From NCBI GenBank assembly GCA_963971405.1, contig OZ020490.1, positions 22,345,464-22,409,463 on the forward strand: a stretch of 64,000 nucleotides of DNA, written 5' to 3'. The notes below the pieces were generated by a model. That model saw only the letters and a list, made by a program, of their open reading frames with translations. It did not search any database and was not told the DNA's origin. The translations under genes and the position numbers were made by a program. The DNA is from Psococerastis gibbosa (lineage: Eukaryota > Arthropoda > Insecta > Psocodea > Psocidae). Every line of letters starts with the position of its first letter. The stretch's first letter is position 1. This document shows positions 8,461 to 64,000 of this stretch, piece by piece.

Positions 8461-9287
8461 AGAACCGGTCCGAGTTTACTCGAACATGCCTTCCAATTTA
8501 TCAAGTGGTAGCTAGAGAAAATGAGTAATTTCATGGTAAATAATTTTCCTATAGTTAAATATCGGGCATCTCGGGGGGGGGGGGGGTGGTGGTGGTTGTC
8601 CACCTGACTTCACTGGAGGTGAGGAAAATTCTAGATAGGTCAGACCAACAAATTACCACACAGCAATAATGGCAGTGCACGCAATGCATTTGACCTTTGA
8701 ATTTTCTATGATTTTTTCAAAAACATTTTTTTTTGCACAAAACCAAATAATTTTTTGGGAAGCAACCTGTCCGATTTCGTTACTCAATTTAACACATAAA
8801 ACACACCTGAACGAAGAAATCATCCACAGAAAGTTTTCGCAGAAAAATTATTTTTTACTCATTTTTCATTAAAATTTAATTATTTTTATTTTTTTACCCC
8901 CAGAAGCAAACTATCAAGGGGCAAGCGACCCCCCGCATTTTATCAATATTAATAATAACAACTACAATATATGTGAATTTAAAAGAAATCGTTGCAGCCG
9001 TTTTTGTGAAATAAAAATAAAACCCCCCAAATTGAGTTAGCCCCAAATTAAAAACATGGTCCCGAGGTATGATTTTTGTAAACGTACATGCAAAATTTCA
9101 TCAAAATCGACCGAGTAGTTTGCCCGGAAATCGACGCACAGACAGACAGACAGACAGACAGACATTTAGTAAAAACCACTTTTTTTGGTTCCTGGGGCCT
9201 CAAAACGTGTAAATCCATTGAAAACTCGCAATCGAAAATTTGGACCATCACAAAGCTTTCCTTATACTACGTATAAATTGGAAAGCA
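8461..9287 (-). mobile_element. HINE-like element, copy A (near complete)
   Basis: Plus-strand order: terminal agaaccggtccgag with the hairpin cgagt-tt-actcg, then gccttccaatttat (one sub-terminal inverted repeat), a poly-G tract, an AT-rich core, a (GACA)n tract at 9137-9164, and the other sub-terminal repeat ataaattggaaagca at the far end. On the element strand this gives 5' sub-terminal repeat, GTCT microsatellite, 3' sub-terminal repeat, hairpin and a T-rich junction, as in Helentron-associated non-autonomous elements. No protein is encoded. The orientation is inferred by placing the hairpin at the 3' end. Confidence 0.85.
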
Positions 9288-9359
9288 AAAACATCAACTC
9301 TACTACCATAGTTCAGTTGACACGTACCCACGTACAGAACAGTACAGAACAATAAGTAT

Positions 9360-9605
9360 TCAAGTACAATAATTTACTAAATTTACACATGTGCATAAAA
9401 TGCACACAAAGAAAGTTGGGAGACCATAAATAATAGACAGTCTAACAGGTGACCAGTCGGCCTTCTGTGGCCTCTTGACCAGAGACCACGTGGTATCAGC
9501 CTGGTCCATACCAGTGTCACAGGCGGCCTTATCAGTCAGAAAGCCGCTGAGAGCAAGAGAACTTTGCAGGTAGAGTTCTATATAGGAGAGACGGGACATT
9601 GCCTT
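9360..9605 (-). other. open frame with a Rep-4 motif; repeat or exon remnant
   Basis: A 79-codon minus-strand frame (9360-9599) begins MSRLSYIELYLQSS. The same peptide motif, (A)R(M/L)(S/F)HL(S/T)YIEL, is encoded at 9857-9910 (+) and 48325-48395 (+), so this is a dispersed repeat that includes a once-coding segment. The stretch is richer in G and C than its surroundings. I do not recognise the protein. No start, stop or splice context supports a working gene. Confidence 0.45.
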
Positions 9606-9689
9606 CCTGCCAACAATATATATTTTTATTTTCTGGGACCAGCCATTGAGAAGATTTAGCAGGTGACACCAGGATTAGATTTCTTTTTT

Positions 9690-9856
9690 TTTTACAAAAA
9701 GGTTAATCCCATACAAACAAATTAAATGAATGTGTGCGATTTACCTCATCAGTCGCCTCTGTAGGTTAGTGTTGAGTTACGACACGTCTCCGATCTCATG
9801 CCATGTAGAGACTCGCACAAGTACAAGCACGCTACCACCTAGCCATCAAAGTCGTG
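9690..9856 (-). mobile_element. SINE B, near full-length
   Basis: On the minus strand: ttcgatggctaggtggtagc-like head with an A-box-like word, then acttgtgcgagtctcta, a gatcggagacgtgtcgtaac-like block in the B-box position, a cagaggcgactga block, a cattcatttaatttgttt block and an A-rich tail (poly-T at 9687-9696 on the plus strand). Eight copies are recognised in the window. The tRNA origin is less clear than for SINE A because the B box is degenerate. Confidence 0.8.
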
Positions 9857-9910
9857 AATATGTTTGGTGGGCTCGACTGTTCCATCTCACCTATATAGAA
9901 CTCCAGTTAT
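9857..9910 (+). repeat. Rep-4 fragment
   Basis: It encodes REYVWWARLFHLTYIELQL, matching the motif at 9565-9600 (-) and 48325-48395 (+). It abuts the SINE B copy, which suggests SINE B inserted next to or into this repeat. Confidence 0.5.
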
Positions 9911-10065
9911 AAGTACAACAAATATTGAGAAATTTAATCTTCGAAGGAAAACTGACAACCAACTGCAAGACAAACGGTCATCAGCAGGCTAAGGAAGAGA
10001 ATAACTTAACCGGGGGATTGTTTAAAATGTTTTAATATTGTTTTGAAAGCAGTTCGGAGGAAGTC

Positions 10066-10215: not shown

Positions 10216-10643
10216 CAGTATCTCCTGTGAATGAAATTTAATAATTTTTTTTATAAAAGGGTTTTCCTCTCCAGTGGTCTGAGACCTTTCCAGCTTCATG
10301 CCACACACGGACATCAGCACTTTAGCAACTTTTTGCGACAAGGTAAACTAGCAAGTTTTACAGGCTCACGCGCTATTTATTTCAAACAGGAAATTCTACA
10401 CTTTTTGGGTTCCTAAAGTAGATTAGTTTGAAAACAAGTGAAGAAGTGTAAATTATTCTCGTTTGTGATCAACAACGAGCACGCGATTATTATAGCCAAC
10501 TCACTATTACTAATTTCCACCCACAGCCTAATTAAAATTAGCCAAAACAACAACCATAGTAGATTTATTAATTTTGTAGATTGTCTTATTGATACATAAA
10601 ACTTTCAAGTTTTAGCAATGCCATAGTATTGTAGCCATTTGAA

Positions 10644-11295
10644 AGAACCGGTCCGAGATTACTCGAGCATGCTTACCAATTTATCAAAATTAGTAGATAG
10701 AGAAAATGAGTAATTTCATGGTAAATAATTTTCCTATGGTTAAATTTCCGATGTCTCGGGGGGAGGGGGGGGGGGTTGTCCACATGACATCATTGGAGGT
10801 GAGGTAAATTCTAGATAGGTCAGACCAACACATTACCACACAGCAATACTGGCAGGGCACGCAATGCATTAGAGCGTGAATTTTATATCATTTGTAAAAA
10901 AAAACATTTTTTTTTACAAAACCAAATACTTTTCTGGGAAAGCAACCTGTCCGGTTTCGTTACTCAATTTAACACCTAAAACATGCCTGAAGGTAGAAAT
11001 CATCGATGGAAAGGTTTCACAGAAAAATTATTTTTTAGTCATTTTTAATTAAAATTTAGTTATTTTTATTTTTTACCCCCAGAAGCAAACAAACAAGGGG
11101 CAAGCGACCCCCGCATTTTGTCAACAATAATAACGACTACAATATATGTGAATTTAAAAGAAATCGTTGGAGCCATTTTGGATAAATAATTTTTTTGGAC
11201 GTTTTTTTGGGAAATGGTCCCGAGGTATATTTTGTGAACCTATACATGCCGAATTTTATCAAAATCGACTGAGTAGTTTGCCCGGAAATCGACGA

Positions 11296-11332
<37 letters not shown>

Positions 11333-11489
11333 GCGACAGAGCGACAGAGCGACAGACAGACAGACATTTCGTAAAAACCACTTTTTTGGGTTCCTGGGTC
11401 CTCAAAACGTGTAAATCCGTTGAAATCTCGGAATCGAAAATTTCGACCATCACAAAGCTTTCCTTATACTAAGTATAAATTGGAAAGCA
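10644..11489 (-). mobile_element. HINE-like element, copy B (near complete)
   Basis: The same order as copy A: agaaccggtccgag with hairpin, sub-terminal repeat, poly-G near 10759, AT-rich core, sub-terminal repeat at the end (ataaattggaaagcaa). The microsatellite at 11297-11365 is longer here, with (GACA)n broken by gagc units, giving GTCY-type repeats on the element strand. Open frames over the microsatellite are artefacts of its period. Confidence 0.87.
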
Positions 11490-12403: not shown

Positions 12404-13293
12404 TTGCTTTCCAATTTATACGTGGTATAAGGAAAGCTTTGTGATGGTCGAAATTTCCGATTCCGAGATTTCAACGGAATTACACGTTTTGAGGTCCCAG
12501 GAACCCAAAAAAGTGGTTTTTACGAAATATCTGTCTGTCGCTCTGTCTGTATGTCTGTCTGTCTGTCTGTATGTATGTCTGTCTGTCTGTTCATCTATTT
12601 CCGGGCAAACTACTCGGCCGATTTTGATGAAATTTTGCATGTAGGTTCACAAAAGTCATGCCTCGAGATCCTTTTTATTTTATTTTGGGCTAACTCAATT
12701 TGGGGGGGTTTTATTCTCAAAAACTACAAAAAAACGTCTAAAGAAATTATTTCTCAAAAACGGCTCCAACGATTTCTTTTAAATTCACATATATTGTAGT
12801 CGTTATTAATGTTAACAAAATGTGGGGGTTCTCATGCCCCTTGATAGAATTTTTCTGGGGGTAAAAAAAAATAAAAATAACTTAAATTTAATGAAAAATG
12901 ACTAAAAAATAATTTTTCTGCTAAACCTTTCTATCAATGATTTCTAACTTCAGGCATGTTTTAGGTGTTAAATTGAGTAACGAAACCGGACAGGTTGCTT
13001 TCCCAAAAAACTATTTGGTTTGTGCAAAAAAAATGTTTTTAAAAAAATGAAAATTCACGCTGAAATGAAATGCATTGCGTGCCCTGCCATTATTGCTGTG
13101 TGGTAATGTAATGTAATGTCTGACCTATCTAGAATTTACTTCACCTCCAGTGACGTCTGGTGAACAAATCCCCCCCCCCCCAGATGTCCGAAATTTAACT
13201 ATAGGAAAATTATTTACCATGAAAGTACTCATTTTCTCTATCTACTAATGGATAAATTGGAAAGCATGTTCGAGTAAACTCGGACCGGTTCTT
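12404..13293 (+). mobile_element. HINE-like element, copy C (near complete)
   Basis: Forward orientation: ttgctttccaatttatacg, then ggaaagctttgtgatggtcg, a CTGT/CTGC microsatellite at about 12530-12590, gggcaaactactcgg.cgattttgatgaaat, an AT-rich core, a poly-C tract near 13170, then ataaattggaaagcatg, the hairpin cgagtaaactcg and ggaccggttctt. Together with copies E and I it best shows the 5'-to-3' order used for the family. Confidence 0.88.
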
Positions 13294-18767: not shown

Positions 18768-18872
18768 GAGCTGCTATTTCGGTGGACACAGTGACCATGT
18801 CCATTATAGAGACTGCCAAAAAACCCAACAGAATCTAAACACTTGCAGTTCTTATGGGAGGCGTTTATCTAA

Positions 18873-19078
18873 AAATAAATTAAATAAATAAATATTGAAT
18901 TTTTTTGTTCTATTACTCAGCCAACCTAGCGGAGTTAGGGCTACAAGCCCTCTCTTACACTCAACTAGGAAAGCCCGGGACCGCTTGCTTTACATGCCCT
19001 CCGAAGCATGGCCAGAAAATGTAGCAAGTGTAGGACTCGAACCAACAACCAGTCGGGTGAAAGTCAGAGTCTAGTGGC
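18873..19078 (-). mobile_element. SINE A, near full-length
   Basis: Minus-strand copy with the B box as ggactcgaacc on the plus strand (tcgagtcc on its own strand), the body ggagggcatgtaaagc and cctaactccgctaggttggc, and an AT-rich tail of taaataaataaat at the left end. Confidence 0.88.
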
Positions 19079-24842: not shown

Positions 24843-25226
24843 GGTGCCCATTCCATTGACCGGCTAGGGCTATTTCCAACAACGGTGACGTGGTAGCAGA
24901 CATTCGAGACTTAGGTGGCGTTTCCACCGACCTCGCATTGCAGAATTGACGGAAATGTTTATTTTCCTCTATGCCATAGTTAAAATTGATCAATGATCAT
25001 TCAGTAAAATCACAAACAAATAAACTAATATTAAAAAATGGCGTCATGGGATATGTTAAGTACAAACATTTTAATAGATTTCTATAAAAAGAAAAATCCT
25101 AATTTCCGTCAATGTTATTTGCATTCTGCAATGCGAGGTCGTTGGAAACGCTACATAAGTCTTGAATGTCTGCTACCACGTCACCGTTGTTGGAAATAGC
25201 CCTAGCCGGTCAATGGAATGGGCGCC
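24843..25226. mobile_element. fold-back element with arms of about 110 bp
   Basis: The left arm (24843-24955) and right arm (25100-25226) are inverted copies at high identity: ccattgaccggctagggcta, caacggtgacgtggtagcag, and cgacctcgcattgcagaatt each have their reverse complement in order on the right. The middle 150 bp is AT-rich. An inner boundary, ggtggcgtttccac, resembles the end of the PIF-like MITE at 49740. It may be a nested pair or one long-armed element. Confidence 0.85.
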
Positions 25227-27395: not shown

Positions 27396-27463
27396 CAGAC
27401 CTAGGACTTCATTAGATTGCTGTGTCACTGGATTTTGTTTATTGATGGATCTACGGTGGAGAT

Positions 27464-27626
27464 ATGTAGAGTAGTGGTACGGACTCTGACTTTCGCCCGA
27501 AAGGTTGTTGGTTCGAGTCCTACACTTTCTACATTTTCTGGCCATGCTTCGGAGGGCATGTAAAGCAGGCGGTCCCGGGCCTTCCTAGTTGAGTGTAAGA
27601 GAAGGCTTTAGTCCTTATTTATTTAC
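27464..27626 (+). mobile_element. SINE A with intact boxes and an internal deletion
   Basis: The head has tagagtagtggtacggact and the exact-looking B box ggttcgagtcc. The body ggagggcatgtaaagcaggc is present. About 45 bases between aggctttag and tccttatttattta are missing relative to 7898-8105. Confidence 0.9.
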
Positions 27627-29198: not shown

Positions 29199-29709
29199 AG
29201 CCAACTCGGAACAGAAGAATCTTATTCCATGGCTAACATTAGCAACATTAGCAAAATGCACTGATTCAATAAAAATCGATTAAAACCGCCAATATTCAAT
29301 GGAAGGTTCATAACCAGAGCAGTAGAGGTGACTGCAGTTGCGAGATGGCAGTTTTAACCGTCAATTAACCCGTGGCTGTAGATCAGTATTGCTTCATATG
29401 GGTGTGACGAAATCGGCTGCACACGCATCATATAATAGTTTTTATAGGTGTATCGAATGAGGCTATGTCCTCTTATAAGGTTATTATGGCCTTTAAGTTG
29501 ACGTGCGTGGCAGCGCAGGGACATTTCCCTAAGAGCTTCAAGGATCTAAATAAACCCAATAAATATATGTAAATTTCCAGAATTAATGCAGTGTTTATGT
29601 AAAGCGACACTCTTGGGCAATTTTCACAGCTGGCTGAAATTATGGTATACAAGTATATAGTCAACACAAAATAAGTTAGAGGTGTACAGCCCGTAGGAAA
29701 TGGGCATCA
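29199..29709. other. unassigned DNA
   Basis: No recognised feature. Confidence 0.45.
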
Positions 29710-30036
29710 CGAAATTTAATACTTTTTATTTTTTATTTAATTAACTAAACATGTTATTAAAGATTTGGCTCATCAAAGTTGTAGAAGACTACTTCATGCA
29801 TCATATAATAAGGTATTTTTAGATTTCGAAATAGTAGTTTTTTTTATTAAAAATCGATTATTCGTGAAAAGTTATTGTTTATAAAATATTTGCATGTTTC
29901 AGAAAAAACTACAATTTCGAAAATTAAAAAATATCTTATAATATGATGCATGAAGTAGTCTTCTACAACTTTGATGAGCCAAATCTTTAATAACATGCTT
30001 AGTTAATTAAATAAAAAATATAAAATATAAAATTTT
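29710..30036. mobile_element. fold-back element with arms of about 130 bp
   Basis: Left arm 29710-29843, right arm 29903-30036. The arms are inverted copies at roughly 90% identity: gttattaaagatttggctca, caaagttgtagaagactact and catgcatcatataataagg all return reversed. The spacer is about 60 bp. No coding sequence. A half copy lies 240 bp downstream. Confidence 0.92.
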
Positions 30037-30272
30037 GTACACTCTTATAGGTGTAGCTACACCTAATAAAATTTCGTCATTTTCCGCCTTAAATTATGTA
30101 CCTCAAAAGAAACCCATTTCCGAAAAAATTAAAAGTCGGCGAAAACTTCGACATGAATTGGGCTGTAATTTTTTCATTGACAGGTATAGGGACCTATTTT
30201 TATGGGAATTTTTATAGAAGGTAAAGCCATGCGAATAAATCAATCTTTGCTTAAGAGTGGAAAATGGCAGCC

Positions 30273-35066: not shown

Positions 35067-36103
35067 CCTACACTAATTAATAAATAGGAAAGCATGTGAG
35101 AGATCACTCGTCCCGGTTGTTTTAAAAATATTAAATTAATCGAAATGTGAGCTCGGATTAACCATTTTTTTAGAATGGAAAGCGAATTGACTTTCACTGT
35201 TAGTATTTTTGTATTGTCTACCTGTCTAACCTAACCTAACCTATGAGATTATACTTTACATTATATTCCTTTGGGCAAGAGTCTAAACAACTTTAGGTAA
35301 GTTTTCTTGAAACGTTTAAATTCTTTCATATATAGCCTATACATACATACGTACAGAATCGCTAGGTACATTAAACAACTGAAGATGGTCCAGAATCCAC
35401 TTTGTAAAAATTGCATTAGCACTATGAGCTTGTTTCCCGAGTACAATATGCCCCCTCCAAGCACCAGTTCCTCCCTAGCTCACAGTAGCCCTATGATTAA
35501 CTCCCAAAGGCAAACTCATTACAAAATACCTATTTTCATCCTATGACATCAATCTAAAAAGTCTTAAGCATAGCAAATGCGTCAAACGAGCCATTGACAA
35601 CGCCATACAATGCCTTGAACTTGCAACCGCACGAAAATATTTCAAAGTAAACTCTAATTGCCTTCTTAGAAAAAATATAAGCCATTAATTAATGAGCACC
35701 CCATGACCTAAGACAACTGCGGACAAAAACTGGTTGCGCACAATGACTTTCACACATACGACTAATGAACACAGCCAAAGACAGACAGTAAAAAATAGCA
35801 CAAGCTGAACTCTGTACAGAAACCTTAACTGACTGATTATCCATAGAAGAGTCGTAAAAAGTTTGGTTGACTAGAACAACAGTGTTCCGGTGTGTTATTG
35901 GGCCTACACTGAGGTGCAATTCTATAAAGGCACGTGGCTTTTCAGGTCAAAGCCCAAAGGGTAGCCATTGAGTGTTATATCTCAGAGTTGGGACATTCGA
36001 CCACGCTACAATTATTTTTTATAAATCCTGGGGCCAACTGGTGCGTTTTCCATTTAAAAAAAGGCGGGGAAAAAATTTGGCGAGCTCGAATTTCTCACCA
36101 CTC
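35067..36103. other. unassigned DNA with a short telomere-like tract
   Basis: At 35227-35243 there are three consecutive cctaa-type units (ctaacctaacctaacct). The rest shows no recognised feature; open frames at 34910-35197, 35307-35546 and 35689-35919 are unrecognisable. Confidence 0.45.
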
Positions 36104-39603: not shown

Positions 39604-40100
39604 TATAAAGCTGGCCAACGGCCTTACCATGTTGATTCCATTAGAGCAGAGCATGTTTCAAACTGCGGCAACTTGGTAGTGTGCACAGCGTTGGCAGGGG
39701 AACCTGCAGCCTGATCGAGGCGATTATAATACCGGGGTTAAATAAATACCCTAGGATTATAACTGTAAACAAACAAATTTTGAATAGCGCTTTCCATTAT
39801 AAAATTATCTTGTTTACATTTTTATTACCAGGGGATTAAATAAATACCGGTATTATAATCGCCTCGATCAGGCAGCTGGTGGGACATGATAACGCGCTTA
39901 GGCAGTATAAGTCGAGTCCTGGTCACCTCCGATTTAATCGTGTAACTTTACCATGTTCCCCAAGTGGTTCGGAATCCACTATAATCAGTAGGTCCACCCT
40001 GTCAGTCAACTCCCCTTTCCCCGAGGTGAAAGAGTCTGCCCTTAGGGTGCCTCAAGTTAACAAACAGACTCACTCCGCCCGCCAGGCTGACAGGGTTGCT
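39604..40100 (+). repeat. dispersed repeat Rep-1, longest copy (interrupted by a MITE)
   Basis: Segments match 58560-58790 on the minus strand (aacttggtagtgtgcacag, ggtcacctccgatttaatcg, ccccaagtggttcggaatcc) and 62770-62995 on the minus strand (agtcaactcccctttccccg, aacagactcactccgcccgc, gacagggttgcttaaagcag). The CNGCAG element at 39704-39878 lies inside. The nature of Rep-1 is unknown; it is moderately GC-rich. Confidence 0.82.
39704..39878. mobile_element. CNGCAG-TIR element, short class (175 bp), inside Rep-1
   Basis: Ends ctgcagcctgatcgaggcga and, from the right, cagctgcctgatcgaggcga; both continue ttataataccgg.. and aataaatacc. The centre has caaattttgaatagcgcttt and ttaccaggggattaaa. 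Closely matched at 54451 and twice at 55634-55962. The Rep-1 copy at 58600-58680 lacks the insertion. Confidence 0.9.
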
Positions 40101-40556: not shown

Positions 40557-41352
40557 TTTTTCCAATTATACGTAGTGTAAGGAAAGCTTTGTGATGGTCG
40601 AAATTTTCGATTCCGAGATTTCAACGGATTTACACGTTTTGAGGTCCCAGGAACCCAAAAAAGTGGTTTTTACGGAATGTCTGTCTGTCGCTCTGTCTGT
40701 TCATCGTTTTCCGGGCAAACTACTCGGTCGATTTCGATGAAATTAGGCATGTAGGTTCACAAAAATCATACCTCGGGACCATTTTTATTTTATTTTGGGC
40801 TCAACTCAATTTGGGGGGTGGGGGGTTTATTCTCAGAAAACTCAAAACAACGTCTAAAAAAATTATTTCTCAAAAACGGATCGGTCACTTACCCCTTGAT
40901 AGTTTGCTTCTGGGGGAAATAAATAAAAAATAAAAAATTTTAAGGAAAAATTACTAGAAAGTAATTAAATTAAAATATAAAATAAAATAAAATTACTAGA
41001 AAGTAATTTTTCTGCAAAACCTTTCTATCGACGATTTCTACGTTCAGGAATGTTTTAGGTGTTAAATTGAACAAATTGAAAAAAAAATTTTTTTTTGAAA
41101 ATTCACACTGAAATGTATTGCGTGCCCTGCCATTATTACTCATTATTACTGTGTGGTAATGTGTTGGTCTGACCTATCTAGAAATTACCTCACATCCAGT
41201 GACGACGTCAGGTGGACAACCCCCCCCCCCCCCCCCCCCGAGATATCCTAAATTTAACCATAGGAAAAGTATTTACCATGAAATTACGCATCTTCTCTAT
41301 CTACTAATTGATAAATTGGAAAGCATGTTCGAGTAAACTCGGAAGGGTTCTT
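40557..41352 (+). mobile_element. HINE-like element, copy D
   Basis: It starts in the 5' sub-terminal repeat (tccaattatacgtagtg, slightly shortened), has a short CTGT tract at 40679-40700, an AT-rich middle with a local duplication around ttactagaaagtaattttt, a run of 20 C at 41220-41239, and ends with the hairpin and a changed terminus (cggaagggttctt). Confidence 0.86.
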
Positions 41353-41869: not shown

Positions 41870-42742
41870 TTGCTTTCCAATTTATACGTAGTATAAGGAA
41901 AGCTTTGTGACGGTCAAAATTTTCGATTCCGAGATTTCAACGGATTTACACGTTTTGAGGTCCCAGGAACCCAAAAAAGTGGTTTTTACGAAATGTCTGT
42001 CTGTCTGTCGCTCTGTCGCTCTGTCTGTTCATCGATTTCTGGGCAAACTACTCGGTCGATCTAAATGAAATTTGGCATGTAGGTTTATAAAAATCATACC
42101 TCCAGATAATTTTTTTTATTTTGGGCTAACTCAATTTGGGGGGGGGGGGGGTTTAATCTCAAAAAACTCCAAAAAAAAGTCTAAAAAAATATTTCTAAAA
42201 ACAGCTCCAACGATTTCTTTTAAATTCACATATATTGTAGACGTTATTAATGCTGATAAAATGCGGGGGGTCGCTTGCCCCTTGATAGTTTGCTTCTGGG
42301 GGTAAAAAAAAAATAATAACTAAATTTTAATGAAAAATGACTAAAAAATAATTTTTCTGCGAAACCTTTCTATCGATGATTTCTAACTTCAAGCATGTTT
42401 TAGGTGTTAAATTGAGTAATGAAACCGGATAGGTTGCTTTCCCAAAAAACTATTTGGTTTGTGCAAAAAAAAAAATGTTTTTAAAAAATGAAAGCAAATT
42501 CACGCTCAAATGCATTGCGTGCCCTGCCATTATTGCTGTGTGGTAATTTGTAGGTCTCACCTATCTAGAATTTAAGTCACCTTCAGTGACGTCAGGTGGG
42601 CGACCCCCCCCCCCCCCCCCCTCGTGATATCCGAAATTTAACCATAGGAAAATTATTTGCCATGAAATTAATCATATTCTCTCTCTACTAATATAAAATA
42701 TAAAATTGGAAAGCATGTTCGAGTAAACTCGGACCGGTTCTT
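41870..42742 (+). mobile_element. HINE-like element, copy E (near complete)
   Basis: ttgctttccaatttatacg at the start, CTGT/CTCT tract at 41995-42028, poly-G near 42138, poly-C of 18 at 42604-42621, then ataaaattggaaagcatg, hairpin cgagtaaactcg, and ggaccggttctt. It lies in the same orientation as copy D 0.5 kb upstream. Confidence 0.9.
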
Positions 42743-43768: not shown

Positions 43769-44457
43769 GGTACGGGCTGGGCTAGGTAGATATGGCTTTT
43801 AATATTTTTTTAAATAAAAAAAGGGTGTGGTTGAGAAGACACGAGTCAAACTTCACCATTCAATTAAACACCCCGACATTGAGTTACCCTACCTAAAATA
43901 GAAAAACACGTCCTGCCATACGATTTTTATAAATAAATAATAAATAAATGTACTCCTAATTGATGGGAACAGGGTTATCGTTTTCTGTTCTTAGCAGACT
44001 AACTCAATTTTGACTTTATACCTCCTAACCAGCTAATATTATGTTTCTCTGCCCTTTCGTCACATATAAGTAAAAAATCCAGCTTTCAAGAGCCCGCCGT
44101 AGATAGGTAACCAACGTTAAACCACACACGTGCTAGTGCCTTGCGGTATGTCAGCTATGTCATAAATGTGTAATTAATTTGATGTTGGTATAAATATAAT
44201 AATAATAATAATAATAATAAGTTGTTTTGTTTTCTCCTCCGGATGTCCCGTAATTAATATATTAGTAAAACAGTAAGTTACATACCTTATTCAGCAATTC
44301 AGTGATTATGACGTCGATGGTTGAAGGTTTGTGTGCGAAACCTCGATGATGAGCTTTTCACTAGCGCCGAGATTTTCCGGAGCAACTTCGACAATTTCTG
44401 TGGCATGCCTAAAACAAAAAATCTAATCTTAAATTGTTGTTAGCATTTTTTTGGATT
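43769..44457. other. unassigned DNA with an (AAT)n tract
   Basis: The (aat)n run is at 44197-44220. Nothing else recognised. Confidence 0.5.
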
Positions 44458-46005: not shown

Positions 46006-46315
46006 CTCAAGTATACTTTACTGTAGATTAGTCTCTAAATGATGTAGCCTTAACTTTAAGCCTATCATTATATTACATCGTACGGTGTTTAATATTTTCC
46101 AACACTTTACAAAACGTCATCAAAACAACCATAAAACAAGCGGGAAACCCTACCCACAATTTGTTATTAGACATCTAAGCATTAATTAGCACTAGCTGCT
46201 AATACGCAGTACGGCCAACTTATATGATTAGGCCGTGAACTTGATACTGTAGACAATGGTACCAGAACGTACCTAATGAGCTTCGCCGTGCGATTTTCGT
46301 TTGACCCTGCCCTCT

Positions 46316-47905
46316 CATAAGCCAGTGTCTGAGAACGGTTATTGGCATGGCATTTGACGCACTTTGAAGATTAGTTGCATTAGGCATTTAAGCCTGTAGG
46401 CACCTGCATAAGCGTATAATGATGACTAAGGCAGGATTGGATAATGTCAAAGAACCCTCACCGACGGTCAATTTCAACGAATTGCCAATGCTTTGGCAAT
46501 TGGCAAAACAGCGACAGCAGACATTCTATAGCGGGGAGAACAAGGTGGGATTGAGTTCGAAACGACTGCATCAGACTATTCGATACTGCCCTCTAATCAG
46601 AGAGTCTCTAACAACAGTAGGCCCTATATGGCGTAGAGTTTGACGTACTTTGAAGATTAGTTTGCATTTAAGCCTGTAGGCACCTGCATAAGCGTATAAC
46701 GATGACTAAGGCCGGATTGGATAATGTCAAAGAACCCTCACTGACGGTCAATTTCAACGAATTGCCAATGCTTTGGCAATTGGCAAAACAGCGACAGCAG
46801 ACATTCTATAGCGGGGAGAACAAGGTGGGATTGAGTTCAAAACAACCGCATCAGACTATTCGATGCTGCCCTCCAATCAGACAGTCTCTAACAACAGTAG
46901 GCCCTAAATGGCGTAGAGTTTGACGTACTTTGAAGATTAGTTTGCATGTAAGCCTGCAGGCACATGCATAAGCGTATAATGATGATTAAGGCAGGCTTGG
47001 ATAATGTCTAAGAACCCTAACCGACGGTCAATTTCAACGGATTGCCAATGCTTTGGCAATTGGCATTAGTGTAAACAGCGATAGCAGACATTCTGTAGCG
47101 GGGAGAACAAGATGGGATTGAGTTCGAAACGACCGCATCAGACAATTCGACCCTACCCTCTAATTAGACAGTCTCTGACAGCAGTAAATAGCGTAGAGTT
47201 TGACGTACTTTGAAGATTAGTTTGCATTAAGCCTGCAGGCACATGCATAAGCGTATAATGATGATTAAAGCAGGCTTGGATAATGTCTAAGAACCCTAAC
47301 CGACAGTCAATTTCAACGGATTGCCAATGCTTTGGCAATTGCATTAGGGTAAACAGCGACAGCAGACATTCTGTAGCGGGGAGAACAAGATGGGATTGAG
47401 TTCGAAACGACCGCATCAGACAATTCAACCCTACCCTCTAATAAGGAAGTCTCTGACAACAGTAAATTGCGTAGAGTTTCACGTACTTTGAAGTTTAGTT
47501 TGAATTGAAGCCCGCAGGCACGGGCCTAATGATGGTTAACGGGAGCTCCAACCACGTCTCAGAAAATCTTACCCACGAATTGCCGAGGCCATGGGATTAG
47601 GGTAAATGGGTAAATAGTGGCAGCAGACACTAAGGAAAACAATGTCGGATAGAGTCCGAAACGACCGAATGAGAAAAGACTTCGCACCTGCCGCATGCGC
47701 TCTCACAAGCCTGTCTCTGAGAAGAGTTAATAGCTTGGCGTTTGACGCACTTTGAAGATTACATGCATTAGGGATTTATGCCTGCAGGCACCAATATAGG
47801 CCTAATGATGATTAAATACGGCTTCGACTATGTCTAAGAAATCTCAACGACAGCGGGGAAGATGGGGCAGAGTTCGAAACAACAGCATTGGAGAAGGGCT
47901 GCAGG
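46316..47905 (+). repeat. satellite-like array, about 6 units of 264-286 bp
   Basis: The landmark tttgacg(t/c)actttgaaga lies at 46353, 46639, 46919, 47199, 47477 and 47741 (spacings 286, 280, 280, 278, 264). Units 1 and 2 are nearly identical and each leaves a plus-strand frame of 73-74 codons (MTKAGLDNVKEPS start); later units carry indels that close the frame and are more diverged. Each unit contains the self-complementary attgccaatgctttggcaat. Centre-to-edge divergence suggests recent duplication at the left side. Confidence 0.95.
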
Positions 47906-50461: not shown

Positions 50462-50715
50462 AGACGTACCAGTCGTTCGGCGAATAAGGTGGGATCGAAT
50501 CCAAAATGACCGCGTCAAATAAGACCTGCAAGTGGATTCTATAGAGAGGAGAATGGAGGACAAGCAGCTGCAATGGTTTGCTCACGTCCAAAGAATGGAT
50601 GAGAATAGAACCACCCGGAGGTTGGTGGAAGCATGGCCACGTGGTAGAAGGCCCATCGGCAGACCAAGGACAACCTTCGAGGAAAAAGTCGAACAACTCA
50701 CTGGAGCAAGAGGAA
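50462..50715 (+). mobile_element. LINE ORF2 C-terminal fragment, cut by a HINE-like element
   Basis: The frame gives DLQVDSIERRMEDKQLQWFA, HVQRMDENRTTRRLVEAWPR and GRRPIGRPRTTFEEKVEQLT. This is the L.W.GHV.RM.......R......P.GRR..GRPR.RW end of non-LTR ORF2. It is interrupted at 50716 by the terminus of a HINE-like copy, with no continuation beyond the truncated copy. One in-frame stop lies just before DLQ. Confidence 0.9.
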
Positions 50716-51204
50716 AGAACCGGTCCGAGTTTACTCGAACATGCTTTCCAATTTATCAATTAGTAGATGGAGAAAATGAGTTATTTCATGGTAAATAATT
50801 TTCCTATGGTTAAATTTCTGATATCTCGGGGGGAGGGGGGTGGAGATTGCCCACCTGACGTCACTGGAGGTGAGGTAAATTCAAGATAGGTCAGACCAAC
50901 AGCTTACTACACAGCAATAATGGCAGGACACGAAATGCATTCGAGCGTGAATTTTCTATCATTTTTTTCAAAAAAATTTGAACCAAACAAAATAGTTTTT
51001 TTGGGAAAGCAACCTATCCGCTTTCGTTACTTAATTTAACACCTAAAACATGCCCGAAGGTAGAAATTATCGATAGAAAGGTTTCGCGGAAAAATTATTT
51101 TTTAGTCCTTTTTCACTAAAATGTAGTTATTTTTATTTTTTTGTACCCCTAGAAGCAAACTATCAAACCCGCATTTTGTCAACATTAATGATGACTACAA
51201 TATA
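50716..51204 (-). mobile_element. HINE-like element, copy F (half)
   Basis: It keeps the hairpin end (agaaccggtccgagtttact), the sub-terminal repeat, the poly-G tract and the AT-rich core up to catttt.gtcaacattaatgat, then stops. The microsatellite and the opposite end are missing. Confidence 0.87.
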
Positions 51205-52117
51205 AGTTAATCTTCTTACATTTCACGAATTCTAAGAAGATAACAGAAATGTCTAAACAGCCATAAAAGCCTGACAGTTTCAGTACAAAGCAAAACTATT
51301 AACCATAAATTAAATGCTGCTTTACCGCGAAACCCCCCTCTTACTAAAAACCAGTCGCACAGCTTCTCTCATCAGACGAGCTCCAATTTTTTTAATTATT
51401 ATAATACATTTCACGGAGGTTGCAAATTATTTCAACAGGTTTAAACATTTTTTCCGCCAAGAAAACTTTTTACGATAAGCAATTGACGTCATGATGGAGA
51501 CCACATTCCCTTAGTTTGTGCGTCAGCGAGCACTCATTATATTTTGTACGGCCGGGCTGTCTACTTTGGGCCTAGCTATTATTCAAATTAGGTCTTAAGA
51601 TGTTGTTATCTCTGTTAGACTTAGATGGCCACTGGCTAGGCTAGTCTCTGATGTTGATTTCATCATTGAGATCCATTAGTGAAGTGGTCATAATATTGCA
51701 TTGCTATGTCTTTTAGCATTATTTATTGGAAGGTGCGGTTAAAGAATCCGATATCAAATACTATAAAACTTAGATGGCAATTAGTAAATTAATTGAATTT
51801 TATAATATCTTCCTTGATGGCGATGCCCAGAGGAAAAACACAACAGAGCGAGGTTACTGTTTTATTATTATAGTATTTTAATGTATCCCCCCTACTTCAC
51901 ACTCGAATATTGGAACAAATATCAAATAAAGACATGAATTCCGATTCAAATCGTATACTTCAACGTAAGCAATTCCATTATTTCTTCGATCGAATAAATA
52001 TTAGCGTGTGTAATCAGGGTCGTACCTAGAATTCTTGAGTTGGGACATTCACTCCAAAAGTATCTGGGCCAACTCTGCCACGTAAAACAGTGAGAATCAC
52101 GGCAGTGCGAACGTAAT
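51205..52117. other. unassigned DNA
   Basis: About 0.9 kb, no recognised feature. Confidence 0.45.
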
Positions 52118-52305
52118 GGAGTCGAAATAAATCAATAAATAAGGACTTTTTGTTGTTTTTATTACTAAGCCAACCTAGTGGAGTTAGGGCTATAAAGCCC
52201 TCTCTTACACTCAACATGGAAGGCCCGGGACCGCCTGCTTTACATGGCCAGAAAATGTAGCCAGTGTGGGACTCGAACCAGCAACCTTTCGGGTGAATGT
52301 CAGAA
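52118..52305 (-). mobile_element. SINE A, near full-length
   Basis: Minus-strand copy with tail aaataaatcaataaataagg at the left, ccaacctagtggagttaggg, gcccgggaccgcctgcttta and the B box ggactcgaacc. About 10 bases of the ggagggcatg block are missing. Confidence 0.88.
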
Positions 52306-52934: not shown

Positions 52935-53695
52935 CTTCTGCGACTGGCAACGAAGGGTGCTAGACCGGGCGGACAGGGGTGACTACGGCAGAATGAAGTC
53001 GAGAGGGTCCTCAGTCAGCTTGGCTTCTGTGACTGGCAAGGAAGGGCGCTAGACCGGGCGGACAGGGGTGACGACGGCAGAATGAAGTCGAGAGGGACCT
53101 CAGTTAGGTCGGCTTCTGCGACTGGCAACGAAGGGTGCTAGACCGGGCGGACTGGGGTGACGACGGCAGAATGAAGTCGAGAGTGTCCTCAGTCAGCTCG
53201 GCTTCTGCGACTGGCAACGAAGGGTGCTAGATCGGGCGGACTAGGGTGACGGCAGCAGAATGAAGTCGAGAGGGACCTCAGTTAGGTCGGCTTCTGCGAC
53301 TGGCAACGAAGGGTGCTAGACCGGGCGGACTGGGGTAACGACGGCAGAATGAAGTCGAGAGGGACCTCAGTTAGGTCGGCTTCTGCGACTGGCAACGAAG
53401 GGTGCTAGACCGGGCGGACTGGGGTGACGACGGCAGAATGAAGTCGAGAGTGTCCTCAGTCAGCTCGGCTTCTGCGACTGGCAACGAAGGGTGCTAGATC
53501 GGGCGGACTAGGGTGACGGCAGCAGAATGAAGTCGAGAGGGTCCTCAGTCGGCTCGGCTTCTGCGGCTGGCAACGAAGGATGCTAGTCAGGGAGGACTGG
53601 GGTGACGGTGGCAGAATGAAGACGAGAGGGCCATCAGTCAGCTCGGCTTCTGCGACTGGCAACGAAGGGTGCTAGTCTGGGCGGGCTGCAGCGCC
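52935..53695. repeat. minisatellite array, 8.5 units of exactly 89 bp
   Basis: cttctgcgactggcaacgaa recurs at 52935, 53024, 53113, 53202, 53291, 53380, 53469, 53558 and 53647, every step being 89 bases. Units are GC-rich against an AT-rich background. Variants (gggacctcagttaggtc against gtgtcctcagtcagctc; agatcgggcggactagggtg) follow a period of three units, so units 2-4 resemble units 5-7: a 267-bp higher-order repeat. Open frames across it are by-products of the period. Confidence 0.98.
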
Positions 53696-54450: not shown

Positions 54451-54625
54451 CTGCAGCCTGGCCATGGCGATTATAATACCGGTATTTATTTAATCCCCTG
54501 GTATTAACAATGTAAATAAACAAATTTTGAATAGCACTTTCCATTACAAAATTATCTTGTTTACGTTTTTAATAACAGGGGATTAAATAAATACCGGTAT
54601 TACAATCGCCATGATCAGGCTGCTG
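54451..54625. mobile_element. CNGCAG-TIR element, short class (175 bp)
   Basis: Ends ctgcagcctggccatggcga and, from the right, cagcagcctgatcatggcga; the arms continue symmetrically for about 55 bp (ttataataccggtatttatt, taatcccctg). The centre is caaattttgaatagcacttt. Its ends carry catggcga, like the long class, whereas the other short copies carry cgaggcga. Confidence 0.9.
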
Positions 54626-55483
54626 ACCAATCTCCAACCTAATTCATCAAAACCGGGCTAGTACTCAAGATATAATTTTGGCGTGGACAAATAATATAAA
54701 TACAATAAAAAATAATTAATTAAATTAAAATTATAGAGGGTTGAACCTGCAGGAAATGATATGGGATTTGGTTAAACTAGCGCAAAATTACACCTCATTA
54801 CCACCACCAACAAGGTAAGTAAATCCTAGGCGTTGGAAAACAAACAAACAAAACTGTTTTCAGTCATTTTTCATTAACTTTTAGGTAGGTGGGCTAATAA
54901 GAAATTGTAAAAAATTAATAGTCATATGCCTAATAAATACAAGCTGCAAAACCTTACATAAGCTAATGATAATACAACTATTTCAATTTAATTTCCCACG
55001 TTTCCTAAATCAAAGCGACTAAGTTTGCAAAAAATGTTTTAAATTAACAACAACCTTCATTACACATAGTCTTATTAATATAAAAATAATTGACGTATGT
55101 GCTAATCTTGAAGTGTCAACTTAATTATTAGTGCTAGGGTGGTGAAACCTTGATTTTAATGTTTAATAAGTGCATAAACTAGAAGCAAAAAACTGCCAGA
55201 CACCAAGTAATATGGGCCACCTATCTGGTTTAACGATGCTAAAATTGATAATCAACATTGAATCTACCTTTATAATACCAAATTATTAATTTATGGCTAG
55301 CTGACGGGGCTGGAAAAGCTTGATATACATGTCTCGAATGCATTAAGATTAAATTAAAAGTTAAAAATGTTATTGAAGTTGCACCCAGCAAGCTAGTTTA
55401 TCAAGTTTTTGCATTTTAGTGTGTACTTAGGGATGATTGAGTTCATCTCACAGCATTGTCAGGTTTATGAGAAAATCAAGGTT
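54626..55483. other. unassigned AT-rich DNA
   Basis: No recognised feature. Confidence 0.45.
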
Positions 55484-56037
55484 GTCCCTCAGGTACGGAT
55501 CCTGGGGACCAGTTATATTTGTAAAGGTATATTTCCAGATCATAGAAGCCAAATTTGGTCAAAATCCATCGAGTAGTTTGTCAACAAATCGACAGACAGA
55601 CTTTTCGTAAAAACTACTGGGACCACCAGCAGTCTGCAGTCTGATCGAGGGGATTATAATATCGGGGTGAAATAAATACCCTAGGATTATAACTGTAAAC
55701 AAACAAATTTTGAATAGCACTTTCCATTATAAAATTATCCTGTTTACATTTTTATTACCAGGGGATTAAATAAATACCGGTATTATAATCGCCTCGATCA
55801 GGTTGCTCATCGAGGCGTTTATAATACCGGGGTTAAATAAATACCCTAGGATTATAACTGTAAAAAAACAAATTTTGAATAGCACTTTCCATTATAAAAT
55901 TATCTTGTTTACCAGTGGATTAAATAAATACCGGTATTATAAACGCCCCGATCAGGCTGCTGGGACCTCAAAGCGTGTAAGTCCGTTGAAATCTCAAAAT
56001 CCCAAAGGGTTTCTTATACTTATACATAAGAAAGCAA
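55484..56037 (-). mobile_element. HINE-like element, copy J, split by a pair of TIR elements
   Basis: Left part: a gtccctcaggtacgg block, tcaaaatccatcgagtagtt and a single cagacagac at 55591-55600, then cgtaaaaactac. The family resumes at 55963 with acctcaaagcgtgtaagtcc, gttgaaatctcaaaatc and ends taagaaagca. Only the microsatellite-side half of the element is present, and it is among the more diverged copies. Confidence 0.8.
55634..55962. mobile_element. two head-to-tail CNGCAG short-class elements
   Basis: The first (55634-55807) is complete; the second (55808-55962) lacks the outermost left bases (starts catcgaggcg) and about 12 internal bases. Both share aaattttgaatagcactttc and ggtattataa. 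The 8-mer ctgggacc is present on both sides (55617-55624 and 55960-55967), though on the right it overlaps the terminal gctgctg. They lie inside HINE-like copy J. Confidence 0.88.
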
Positions 56038-56478: not shown

Positions 56479-56649
56479 TTAGATATGCCATCGTGCACAG
56501 GATTGTTAAAGTGGGAGGCAGCAGTAAAAGGATAAGCCACAGCCCACACTACCAATGGCTCTAAAAAATACAACTAGGGTGACGCGATCTCTTAGGAGAA
56601 ATTTCATTTACCATCATGCAGAACAGAACCACGATTATTCACTACTTTT

Positions 56650-56945
56650 ACCCAAAGAAAGCCGAAGAAACTGCTAGTCCCAAACTCTGAACCCAAGATC
56701 CATAAGAACAGGTGCGCCTACATTTACCCAAAGAAAGCCGAAAAACTGCTAGTCCCGAACTCTGAACCCAAGATCCATAAGAACAGGTGCGCCTACATTT
56801 ACCCAAAGAAAGCCGAAAAAACTGCTAGTCCCGAACTCTGAACCCAACATCCATAAGAACAGGTGCGCCTACATTTACCCAAAGAAAGCCGAAAAAACTG
56901 CTAGTCCCGAACTCTGAACCCAACATCCATAAGAATAGGTGCGGT
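56650..56945 (+). repeat. four tandem units of 75-76 bp
   Basis: acccaaagaaagccgaaaaa recurs at 56650, 56726, 56801 and 56877 with nearly identical bodies (ctgctagtcccgaactctga, catccataagaacaggtgcg). Very low divergence marks a recent array. Confidence 0.97.
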
Positions 56946-58182: not shown

Positions 58183-58398
58183 TGGTAAATAAATAAATAT
58201 TGACTTTTTTGTTCTATTTCTAAGCCAACCTAGCGGAGTTAGGGCTATAAAGCCCTCTCTTACACTCAACTAGGAAGCCCCAGGACCGCCTGCTTTACAT
58301 GCCCTCCGAATCATGGCCAGAAAATGTAGGAAGTGTAGGACTCGAACCAACAACTTTTCGGGTGAAAGTCAGAGTCCGTACCACTACTCTACATGTCT
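58183..58398 (-). mobile_element. SINE A, full-length
   Basis: Minus-strand copy running from the taaataaataaat tail through ccaacctagcggagttaggg, gcctgctttacatgccctcc, B box ggactcgaacc, to the A-box-like ccgtaccactactctac. It joins Rep-1 at about 58400-58408. Confidence 0.92.
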
Positions 58399-58407
58399 TG
58401 ACTACCA

Positions 58408-60252: not shown

Positions 60253-61000
60253 GAACCGGTCCGAGTTTACTCGAACATGCTTTCCAATTTATCATTTATC
60301 ATCAATTTATCTATTAATGTAGATAGAGAAAATGAGTAATTTCATGGTAAATAATTTTCCTATGGTTAAATTTCGGATATCACGAGGGGGGGGGGGGGGG
60401 TCGCCCACCTGACGTCACTGAAGGTGACTTAAATTCTAGATAGGTGAGACCTACAAATTACCACACAGCAATAATGGCAGGGCACGCAATGCATTTGAGC
60501 GTGAATTTGCTTTCATTTTTTAAAAACATTTTTTTTCCACAAACCAAATAGTTTTTTGGGAAAGCTACCTGTCCGGTTTCGTTACTCAATTTAACATCTA
60601 AAACATGCCTGAAGGTAGAAATCATTGATAGAAAGGTTTCGCCGAAAAATTAGTTTTTAGTCATTTTTTATAAAAATTGAGTTATTTTTATTTTTTTTAC
60701 ACCAGAAGCCAACTGTAAAGAAACTAGTGATCCCCCTCATCGTATTAACATTAATAACGACTACAATATATGTGAATTTAAAAGAAATCGTTGGAGCCGT
60801 TTTTGAGAAATAATTTTTTTAGACTTTTTTTTTAACTTGTTTTTAGAATAAAACCCCCTTAAATTGAGTTAGCCCAAAAAAAAAAAAAAAAATCCCGAGG
60901 AATGATTTTTGTGAACCTACGTGCTAAATTTCATCAAAATCGACAGAGTAGTTTGCCCGGAAATCGATGAACAGACAGAACGACAAACAGACAGATAGAT
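60253..61000 (-). mobile_element. HINE-like element, copy G (one end lost)
   Basis: Hairpin end gaaccggtccgagtttactc, sub-terminal repeat, poly-G of 15 near 60386, AT-rich core, and the start of the microsatellite (acagacagaacgacaaacag), where it stops. The far sub-terminal repeat is missing. Confidence 0.88.
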
Positions 61001-61385
61001 CATCAGCGGGGTGTGTTTAACTACGATTGCACGTAGTCTGTAATAACGCGAATACTGCAGAACTGCACACAATGTAGACATTGTTTAGGCACATATCCGT
61101 TGCAATGTGCACTTTAAAACTGTTGTGAAATGAACAAGACAGTCACAAGTGTCACTGTGGTTTCCTAATACTGCACTTTACCTTAGTAGTAACTAGGATT
61201 TCACTTGCGGGCTAGGCTGTTCATTACAATCTGCATTCCGCAGGTTCTATAGCCCTTAGCCACCTCTGCTTCCAAAGAGAAGGAAACTCCGATCATCTAT
61301 TCAGCTGCAATGGCAGTTCTAACAATCTAAATTGTAACAAATTAAGCCCACACGAATTGGCCGTAATAGGCTACACAAATCGAGA
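61001..61385. other. unassigned DNA between two HINE-like copies
   Basis: No recognised feature. Confidence 0.45.
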
Positions 61386-62191
61386 AGAACCGGTCCGAGT
61401 TTACTCGAACATGCTTTCCAATTTATAAAGTAGTAGATGGACATAATGTGTCACTTCATTGTAATTAATTTCTCTATGGTTATATTTCTGTTACGGGATG
61501 GGGGGTCCTCCTCAATATATTAAAAACCCCTTAAAACTCAATTGCATATTCTGGAACGAACAGACCAATACATTGTAACAATGACAGGGCGCGCAATGTA
61601 TTGGAGCGTGAATTGTCCATAATTTCTTCAAAAAAATAATTTTTTGCACAGAACCAAATACTTTTTTGGGAAAGAAACCTGTTTGGTTTTGTTACTCTAT
61701 TTAACACCTAAAACATACCTGAAGGTAGAAATCATCGATTGAAAGGTTCCACAGAAAAATTAATTTTTAGTCATTTTTCATTAAAATTGACTTAATTGTA
61801 TTTTTTTACCCTCAGAAGCAAACTATCAAGGGGCAAGCGACCCACCACATTTTGTTAACAGTAATAACGACTACAATATATGTGAATTAAAAAAAAAATT
61901 GTTGGAGCCGTTTTTTAGAAATAATTTTTTTAGACGTTTTTTTGGAGTTTTTTTTTATAATAACCCCCCGCCCCCAAATTGAGTAACCCCAAAATAAATA
62001 AAAAATTGTCCCGAGGTATGATTTTTGCAAACCTACATGAACAGACAGACAGACAGAGCCACAACCAGTTCGTAAAAACCACCGTTTTGGGTTCCTAGGA
62101 CCTCAAAACGTGTAATTCCGTTGAAATCTCGGAACCGAAAATTTCGACCATCACAAAGCTTTCCTTATACTACGTATAAATTGGAAAGCAA
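61386..62191 (-). mobile_element. HINE-like element, copy H (near complete)
   Basis: agaaccggtccgagtttact with hairpin, sub-terminal repeat, AT-rich core, a very short microsatellite (acagacagacagacag at 62040-62055), tcaaaacgtgtaattccgtt and the end tacgtataaattggaaagca. About 60 bases around the tcaaaatcgaccgagtagtt segment before the microsatellite are missing. Confidence 0.88.
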
Positions 62192-62769
62192 AAAAATAGA
62201 AATAACAAACATATGTGGTGTCTCGTGAATTAGGGCAGTAGTTTATTAGTTATGGCTGCCTATAGTCTCAAATTATAGGTAGGTTAGCCTGTCCGGCAGT
62301 AGTGACCGCTCGTAAGGCAAAGTCCCCGGGGCAAAATTAGCAAGGCCGCGGAGTTACTCAAGCGCAGCCTCATGTGAAAGCTAACTGGCGCGGCTATCCT
62401 ATTGTATATGTAATTATATTATGCCCTATGGCTGTCGCATTCAAATGTAACACATACTGTATATGATGCATTTTGATTTTCGGGGACAAGGGGGAAAGGG
62501 AATTCAAGCCCGTTTGAATTTTGATGCATAAATGAGAAAAATGGCATTGTATAGCATATATATATTATCTTTTTATTGGATTTAATGCATTCGTCTTCCC
62601 GTCATGTTTGCTTGTACATTTTGTTCGTTTTACGGTCTTCTGATAATCTTACGATTTGTCCAATCCATCAATTTCTTATACACCTCTCTCAGTTTTGAAA
62701 CAGGAATTCATAGATTATGCTTATTACAATTCTTTCCAAATTTCCAATACTGGCAGCTGGCGTCGTTGG
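62192..62769. other. unassigned DNA
   Basis: No recognised feature. Words at 62320-62390 (ccccggggcaaaattagcaa, ggccgcggagttactcaagc) return in altered form at 63150-63190 (ctggggcgaaataagcaagg, ccagagtgttacccaagcgt), so a diverged 840-bp-spaced repeat flanks the Rep-1 copy between them. Confidence 0.5.
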
Positions 62770-62995
62770 CGGGTAGATCCTGCCTCCTGCATTTCTGCTT
62801 TAAGCAACCCTGTCAGCCTGGCGGGGGGAGTGAATCTGTTTATTAAATGGAGGCACCTTAAAGGCGGCAGACTCCTTCACCTCAGGGAGAAGGGGAGTTG
62901 ACTAACAGGGTGAACCTGTGCACACTGCCAAGTTTGCTGCAGTTTTGAATAGGCTCAGTTCTGGTGGATTCAACTTGATAAGGCCATTGGCAATT
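62770..62995 (-). repeat. dispersed repeat Rep-1, copy 3
   Basis: On the minus strand: aacttggcagtgtgcacagg, gtcaactccccttctccctg, aacagattcactccccccgc and gacagggttgcttaaagcag. It lacks the middle part (ggtcacctcc...ggaatcc) present in the other two. Confidence 0.82.
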
Positions 62996-63382
62996 ATTAT
63001 GAAGGGCGGCATTTTCATGTTGCAACTTGGGCAGTATGCTTGTTTTCGTGCTAATTCTGCGCCCGGGCCTTCTGGAATCTATTAAAAACTTCTAATTGAG
63101 GGTAAAGGACTACTTCTAAAGTACAGGGATTATGTCCAGTGACTCGCCTGGGGCGAAATAAGCAAGGCCAGAGTGTTACCCAAGCGTAGCCTATGAACAC
63201 TAACTATAGGGATAATCACGTTGTGTATGATGGTAGATGTAACAAAATAGTAATGGATTTTCGTAAGTGTCTATGTTGACACATTATTTGAATAGCGGGA
63301 CAGAACGGCAGGTTAAACCTATTACAGGGTCAACGACGTATTACTCAAATAGTGCCACTGTTTTATAGTGTAATTATTATTA
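62996..63382. other. unassigned DNA
   Basis: Apart from the diverged repeat at about 63145-63205 noted with the preceding gap, nothing recognised. Confidence 0.45.
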
Positions 63383-64000
63383 TTGCTTTCCAATTTATAC
63401 GTAGTATAATGAAAGCTTCGTGATGGTCGAAATTTTCGATTCCGAGATTTCAACGGATTTACACGTTTTGAGGTCCCAGGAACCCAAAAAAGTGGTTTTT
63501 ACGAAATGTCTGTCTGTCTGTCGTTCTGTCTCTCTTTCTGTCTGTCTGTCTGTCTGTGAGTCGATTTCCGGGCAAACTACACGGTCGATTTTGATGAAAT
63601 TTTGCATGTAGGTTTACAAAAATCATGCCTCGGGAATATTTTTTTATTTTGGGCTAACTTCATTTGGGGGGGTTTATTCTCAAAAAACTCCAAAAAAACG
63701 TATAAAAAAATTCTTTCTCAAAAACGGCTCCAACGATTTCTTTTAAATTCACATAAATTGTAGTCGTTATTAATTCTAACAAAATGCGGGGGGTCGCTTG
63801 CCCCTTGATAGTTTGCTTCTGGGTGTAAAAAAATTAAAATAACTCAATTTTCTTAAAAAATAATTTTTCTGTGGAACCTTTCTATTGATGATTTCTACCT
63901 TAAGGTATGTTTTAGGTGTTCAATAGGATAACAAAATCAGTCAGGTTGCGTTCCCAAAAAAAAAAATTTGCTTCCGGGCAAAAAATTATTTTTTGAGAAA
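63383..64000 (+). mobile_element. HINE-like element, copy I (runs off the window)
   Basis: ttgctttccaatttatacg, the agtataatgaaagcttcgtg block, CTGT tract with ctctctttctgtctg at 63508-63556, gggcaaactacacggtcgat, poly-G near 63666, and the AT-rich core up to the window end. The hairpin end would lie beyond 64000. Confidence 0.9.

Follow-up and report, generated by a model that had tools for sequence, protein, structure and literature searches.

A very abundant DINE-1-like repeat family in the genome of Psococerastis gibbosa and a broken element that shares its ends

A repeat family that recurs through 64 kb of the genome of the psocid insect Psococerastis gibbosa (GenBank assembly GCA_963971405.1, contig OZ020490.1, here C15, positions 22345464-22409463; this whole stretch is referred to below as the window) is real, and with a probability of roughly 0.88 it is of the DINE-1/HINE type, i.e. 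a non-autonomous rolling-circle transposon of the Helentron group that is built like Drosophila DINE-1. The family was placed in this group because it conforms to the published rule for such families, the feature that is not secured being an intact Helentron with the same ends. The direct observations are the anatomy of the element, its copy number, two exact empty sites, a T-rich target, the nesting of copies in T-runs of the family's own copies, and an 8.1-kb element that has the same ends and a broken Rep between them. Elements of this kind are already well known, and nothing about this one is new in principle.

Genome-wide scans covered 409,210,807 bases in 68 contigs. The alignment that a preliminary description of the window, made from the letters alone, had called for gave one consensus of 871 bp, built from 25 of 29 paired copies (the other four, of 170, 463, 704 and 1356 bp, were left out, and the overlapping loci L015 and L026 were removed from the sampled set). 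The identity of the copies to this consensus ranged from 73.9 to 96.9%, with a median of 93.4. When a 31-mer from the 3' end, comprising the subterminal repeat and the hairpin, was searched with up to 3 mismatches, 15,379 matches (7,706 + 7,673) were found in the genome and 0 and 0 in the control; the exact, gapped form of the same end gave 3,995 + 3,871 matches. In the window the 31-mer matched 8 times under the same tolerance as compared with 0 in 100 shuffles, and the motifs named in the preliminary description were thus present far above chance. The genome-wide rate would yield 2.4 such 3' ends in 64 kb (Poisson 0.003), and the window is therefore dense in them, although it was picked for its copies. 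The statement that the family dominates the window was nevertheless too strong, because it covers only about 7,054 bp, or 11.0% of the 64 kb.

Six of the copies in the window have both ends and two lack the 5' part; a further one is truncated where the window stops, another is a decayed fragment, and the last is a 3' scrap. All ten sites listed earlier do carry family sequence, and the list had missed the scrap at 35072-35121; the single plan that they were said to share is borne out with both ends in 6 of the 10, the others being the two without a 5' part, the window-cut copy and the decayed fragment without a 3' end. As a control, a search of the reversed window with the consensus returned short matches only, of up to 55 bases, in microsatellite, A-rich and C-run stretches. 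Neither the 3' end nor the block that follows the microsatellite had an exact match in a viral collection, and the latter block had none in prokaryote genomes. A motif search of the main texts of a collection of papers, which sequences in figures or supplements would escape, retrieved unrelated titles only and no description of the family; this result does not show that the family is absent from repeat libraries.

The consensus is laid out in the manner of DINE-1. Its two subterminal inverted repeats, GCTTTCCAATTTAT and ATAAATTGGAAAGC, are identical at 14 of 14 bases, at least 11 being what the family rule asks for. At the 5' end GCTTTCCAATTTAT is followed by 11 bases and then by GGAAAGC, the arm of a second inverted repeat, for which the rule allows 3-22 bases from the 5' repeat. 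This end is predicted to fold into a hairpin of 13 pairs (-8.1 kcal/mol, z -4.84 with respect to shuffles), and 30 of 40 sampled 5' ends retain all seven of its outer pairs when G-T is counted as a pair. A GTCT-type microsatellite begins at consensus base 124, in accordance with a GTCY-rich microsatellite in the 5' block; the core had been given as (GTCT/GTCG)n, and it is indeed mainly GTCT with GTCG variants, with GTAT variants occurring as well. The block that follows the microsatellite may resemble its counterpart in Drosophila DINE-1, a likeness to which no weight is given here. A short insect element with such a microsatellite, the (GTCY)n-carrying miniature inverted-repeat transposable elements (MITEs) of Coates et al. 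from 2011, is reportedly similar, the likeness being drawn from the title alone. At the 3' end, ATAAATTGGAAAGC is separated by two bases from a stem-loop, whose stem is of 7 bases and whose loop is TAAA (the rule has a stem of 7-11 bases shortly after the 3' repeat); CGGTTCTT comes after it. The longest frame from an ATG in the consensus has 76 codons and lies over the microsatellite, and the consensus thus has no coding capacity by the same rule.

The portions available of the study of Yang and Barbash (2008, PMC2374699) describe a DINE-1 (INE-1) plan in Drosophila in which the 5' member of a pair of subterminal inverted repeats is accompanied by a second inverted repeat, the 5' block contains a microsatellite rich in GTCY, and a stem-loop stands a few bases past the 3' repeat. 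The psocid family shares all of these features, together with insertion at (A/T)TT with an ambiguous TT and the lack of a significant open reading frame. Unlike DINE-1 as described there, the family has repeats of 14 rather than 13 bases, its ends are GCTTTCCAATTTAT rather than the ATACCCGTTACTC of D. melanogaster, no tandem central repeats were noticed in its consensus, and it has about 15,000 3' ends. As far as the accessible text of Thomas et al. (2014, PMC4067079) goes, the HINE families of the mite Metaseiulus also have subterminal inverted repeats, a 3' palindrome, a T-rich target without detectable target change, and copies that far outnumber any coding element. In contrast, the mite HINEs are described there as lacking the second 5' repeat, which the psocid family has in common with DINE-1, as well as the core, and as having subterminal repeats that are themselves palindromic. 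All the non-coding DINE-1 features that were tested are present, and the DINE-1/Helentron interpretation put forward in the preliminary description is therefore supported, its weak points being the stability of the 3' stem and the question of a TT duplication.

The insertion sites point in the same direction. The junction counts leave out L004, a duplicate among the 5' rows, and any ends that lay too close to the edge of a stretch. Among the 40 remaining 5' junctions, T was found at position -5 in 36, at -4 in 37, at -2 in all 40 and at -1 in 38, and position -3 was occupied by A or T in 36; the junction thus carries TT in 38 of 40, as expected for insertion at the TT of (A/T)TT. The base after the 3' end was T at 36 of 50 sampled 3' junctions, so that the terminus lies next to T, as had been claimed, in these and not in the other 14. 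When the joined flanks of 29 loci were examined, clear paralogous empty sites among those listed were those of L010, L014, L005 and C15r_4176. Both L010 and L014 are nested in family copies and have exact empty sites, the flanks of L010 ending at consensus base 255 and resuming at 256 and those of L014 meeting at 615/616, with zero bases gained or lost if the element spans GCTTTCC to GGTTCTT. Both lie in T-runs; therefore, the sum of the bases is exact and their split between element and target is not. The empty site of L005 has the right length, with A versus T at -3, and C15r_4176 lies in a T-run of varying length (11 versus 8 and 10) that does not settle the boundary. The T-run at about consensus bases 250-257 has been hit in three different host copies, by L010 and by C20a and L065 (3' side alone). 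Boundaries at TT had been predicted, and consistent target-site duplications had been named as evidence to the contrary; the boundaries do fall at TT, and no duplication was seen beyond this ambiguous TT. On contig C1, three pairs of 3' ends with a spacing of 324-325 bases (3.00, 3.29 and 3.38 Mb) were considered as read-through past the 3' stop, and this was rejected because their right flanks are identical, which makes them one nested copy in a segmental duplication. Arrays of TTAGG, a telomere repeat that points to an arthropod, are located no more than about 16 kb from the end of the same contig.

A search of the genome for the Rep family PF14214 returned 20 loci, some of them overlapping, of which 11 carry the motif RGLPH, the Helitron form, 3 carry RGMVH or a remnant of it, 1 carries GSPH and 5 carry no such motif. 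The RGMVH group (L031, L032 and L039) belongs with the Helitrons, because the match of L031 to the RGLPH Helitron (E 9e-98) is stronger than its match to the GSPH Rep (2e-7). GSPH is the Helentron form of the Rep motif by the rule given in the accessible part of PMC4067079. This Rep (C15:2836273-2839677, minus strand, L053/L054) is an open frame of 1,135 codons with DUF6570 and Helitron_like_N, is not followed by another long frame, lacks a second copy that is close to it in sequence, and is either a dying Helentron or a host-adopted Rep. It was discarded as the partner of the family, since it is not enclosed by family ends and the family copies that flank it are complete copies of their own. 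When used as a query it gave 12 matches at 7 places in the genome. Three of the 7 were read with 20 kb around them, and the other four are at C3:44.45 Mb, C12:1.74 and 10.87 Mb, and C15:27.70 Mb. The helicase family PIF1 gave 15 matches: nine lie beside Helitron Reps, five, spread over four other places, are short or degraded, and one is a 641-codon frame that may be a host gene.

One of the three places that were read, at C20:19.26 Mb, holds an element of 8,146 bp that starts with the family 5' end and the 680 bases that belong to it (87.5% identity), continues with other sequence and finishes with the last 40 bases of the family (92.5%), all on one strand. It splits a family copy of opposite strand, with consensus bases 289-457 on one side and 466-520 and 787-871 on the other, and about 450 further bases, including a doubled repeat, also lie between the parts of this copy. 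Inside the element, on the same strand as its ends, is a relic of a Rep (PF14214, 42.3 bits, cut-off 28.9), which aligns to the GSPH Rep of C15 in blocks 523-624 and 815-1084. Searched against the 20-kb C20 stretch, this GSPH Rep gave E values of 3e-16 and 9e-11, an RGMVH Rep 0.008 and the RGLPH Helitron Rep 0.11, and by these scores the broken Rep is nearer to the Helentron-type Rep of this genome than to its Helitron Reps. The last 761 bases of the element are found again at C15:22619292-22620063, where they are 90% identical and have the same end, and at least 5 further places share at least 100 bases up to its 3' end (40 of 783 candidates scored in both cases), so that this 3' arrangement has been copied. 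The first 790 bases recur at C12:46722428 (85%; 40 of 11,350 candidates scored). No transposase family, DDE included, was found in any of the 42 listed frames of at least 60 codons (E up to 1 for 15 frames and 0.01 for the other 27, frames across the L059/L060 join being part-read), and the same-ended DDE-coding partner that would have spoken for another mechanism did not appear there. In a frame of 352 codons, a protease-like match to Herpes_teg_N stays below threshold, with 19.6 bits against a cut-off of 25. A frame that by eye resembles a piece of the RNase H of a long interspersed element (LINE) is nested in the element (L060, 3877-4401, minus strand), with no Pfam match. As for the Rep-coding Helentron with a shared 3' end that had been anticipated, there is thus one element with a Rep relic, which is broken and single copy.

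Several observations weigh against the DINE-1-type assignment or against the 8.1-kb element as its former partner. The consensus 3' stem is no more stable than shuffles (z -0.66). All seven of its pairs, G-T included, are kept in 45 of 50 sampled 3' ends, but most of these ends had been picked up through an exact match to a motif of which the stem is part. At the empty sites described above, a duplication of TT and a TT that belongs to the element cannot be told apart, an ambiguity that the text available of PMC2374699 also describes for DINE-1 of D. yakuba. Within the 8.1-kb element, Rep motif 2, which in the C15 Rep is at residue 695, falls outside the aligned blocks, and none of the 42 frames shows a helicase or endonuclease family; the RGSPH motif 2 and the C-terminal endonuclease of a Helentron were accordingly not found in it, and it resembles the GSPH Rep only. 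Its coding part is single copy in the genome and therefore has not been seen moving with the family ends, and the recurring 761-base piece stops about 280 bases short of that part. The other two Helentron-type Rep places that were read, C15:2.84 Mb and C20:15.20 Mb, are not enclosed by family ends, and the PIF1 search, at its sensitivity, found no intact Helentron-type helicase in the assembly.

The single-copy coding part would also be expected if the family were rolling-circle and the 8.1-kb element were not its partner, an unrelated Helentron relic having fallen into a family copy and removed consensus bases 681-831. This explanation concerns the partner only and is compatible with a DINE-1-type family, and the other nested pieces held by the 8.1-kb stretch, among them the one that looks like a LINE RNase H by eye, favor it. 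We consider it possible, if rather doubtful, since the 3' end has been copied to other places together with the sequence before it and the Rep shares the strand of the family ends. A different objection concerns the class of the element itself. If the junctions are taken as TT-GCTTTCC...GGTTC-TT, and the empty site as having a single TT, the family would be a MITE, shortened from a cut-and-paste DDE transposon that makes a 2-bp TT target duplication; according to the part available of PMC2374699, DINE-1 itself was formerly interpreted in this way. In the family, however, the two termini do not form inverted repeats, matching at 5 of 20 bases, the 3' repeat ends 28 bases inside the element, no unambiguous duplication is seen, and what lies between the same ends on C20 is a Rep relic, with no DDE family in the 42 listed frames, so that a MITE is very unlikely.

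The genome's own Helitrons were the first partner tested. An open Rep/helicase frame of 1671 codons stands at three places (L063 at C1:12.05 Mb, L064 at C14:26.38 Mb, and C15:7.18 Mb), and two of these Helitrons, when compared, were 99.96% identical over 8,206 bases, which indicates recent activity and would make them attractive as the source of movement of a family of canonical Helitron derivatives. Nevertheless, the stretch shared by both compared copies ends in the hairpin GGGGCCC-GTA-GGGCCCC and CACTTGTT, not in CTRR, and these Helitrons were ruled out as the partner by this different 3' end and by their RGLPH motif. Moreover, the family has neither the 5' TC nor the 3' CTRR of canonical Helitrons (its ends are GC...TCTT), and it inserts at TT instead of A^T, which leaves a canonical Helitron derivative hardly credible. 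It also appears highly improbable that the family, orphaned after its own Helentrons died, kept or regained its mobility through the Rep of these unrelated, recently active Helitrons despite the different ends.

The features of the type copy and the family copies of the window are collected in Table 1. Three weaker matches (7209-7303, 43862-43928 and 54857-54887) were not counted as copies.

Table 1. Positions, within the window, of the structural features of the type copy and of the copies of the family
Feature	Position	Strand	Remarks
5' subterminal inverted repeat GCTTTCCAATTTAT, type copy	12406..12419	+	
3' arm of second inverted repeat, GGAAAGC	12431..12437	+	pairs with first seven bases of 5' repeat in 5' hairpin
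GTCY-type microsatellite, type copy	12530..12590	+	
3' subterminal inverted repeat ATAAATTGGAAAGC, type copy	13252..13265	+	
3' stem-loop GTTCGAG-TAAA-CTCGGAC	13268..13285	+	8 bases before 3' terminus
Complete copy, consensus 1-871	8460..9286	-	87.4% identity
Complete copy, consensus 1-871	10643..11488	-	86.6% identity
Complete copy (type copy), consensus 1-871	12406..13293	+	90.0% identity; 5' flank ATT, 3' end CCGGTTCTT then T
Lone decayed 3' end, consensus 822-871	35072..35121	+	80% identity
Nearly complete copy, internal deletions	40559..41352	+	starts at consensus base 3 (consensus alignment)
Complete copy	41872..42742	+	90.8% identity to consensus
5'-truncated copy, consensus 360-871	50715..51211	-	88.9% identity
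Decayed fragment, three blocks of consensus 54-216	55548..56001	-	without 3' end; interrupted by other repeat
5'-truncated copy, consensus 141-869	60253..60999	-	breakpoint inside microsatellite
Complete, older copy	61385..62189	-	77.6% identity to consensus
Copy cut by window end, consensus 1-622	63385..64000	+	89.0% identity

Other repeats are also present in the window. Tandem arrays lie at 52935-53688 (8.5 copies of 89 bp), 46303-47521 (4.3 copies of 280 bp) and 56642-56943 (4.0 copies of 76 bp), and self-complementary repeats at 29709-30038 (84%), 39702-39880 (76%) and 24843-25226 (74%); the repeat at 39702-39880 has relatives at 54451-54625 and, within the decayed family fragment, at 55634-55963. 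A second dispersed family, in pieces of about 110-215 bp that are some 80-95% alike, occupies six places (7895-8113, 18864-19071, 27460-27615, 39235-39343, 52125-52304 and 58186-58403), with a weaker relative at 5906-6046.

By analogy with DINE-1, the family most likely works as a non-autonomous rolling-circle element with T-rich insertion sites. A Rep/helicase protein made by a Helentron would recognize the hairpin-forming 5' end, nick it and peel off one strand, the strand transfer would stop at the 3' stem-loop near CCGGTTCTT, and the single strand would then be joined into a T-rich (A/T)TT target with no detectable target duplication. We infer these protein steps, as well as the descent of the 8.1-kb element from a partner of the family and the lack of any working partner left in the assembly. 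With this family, a very abundant member with clean ends and readable empty sites is added to the DINE-1 type, and its copies nested in one another, whose target sequence is known, hence provide base-exact junctions. The broken element with the same ends is one more hint that ties DINE-1-type repeats to Helentrons.

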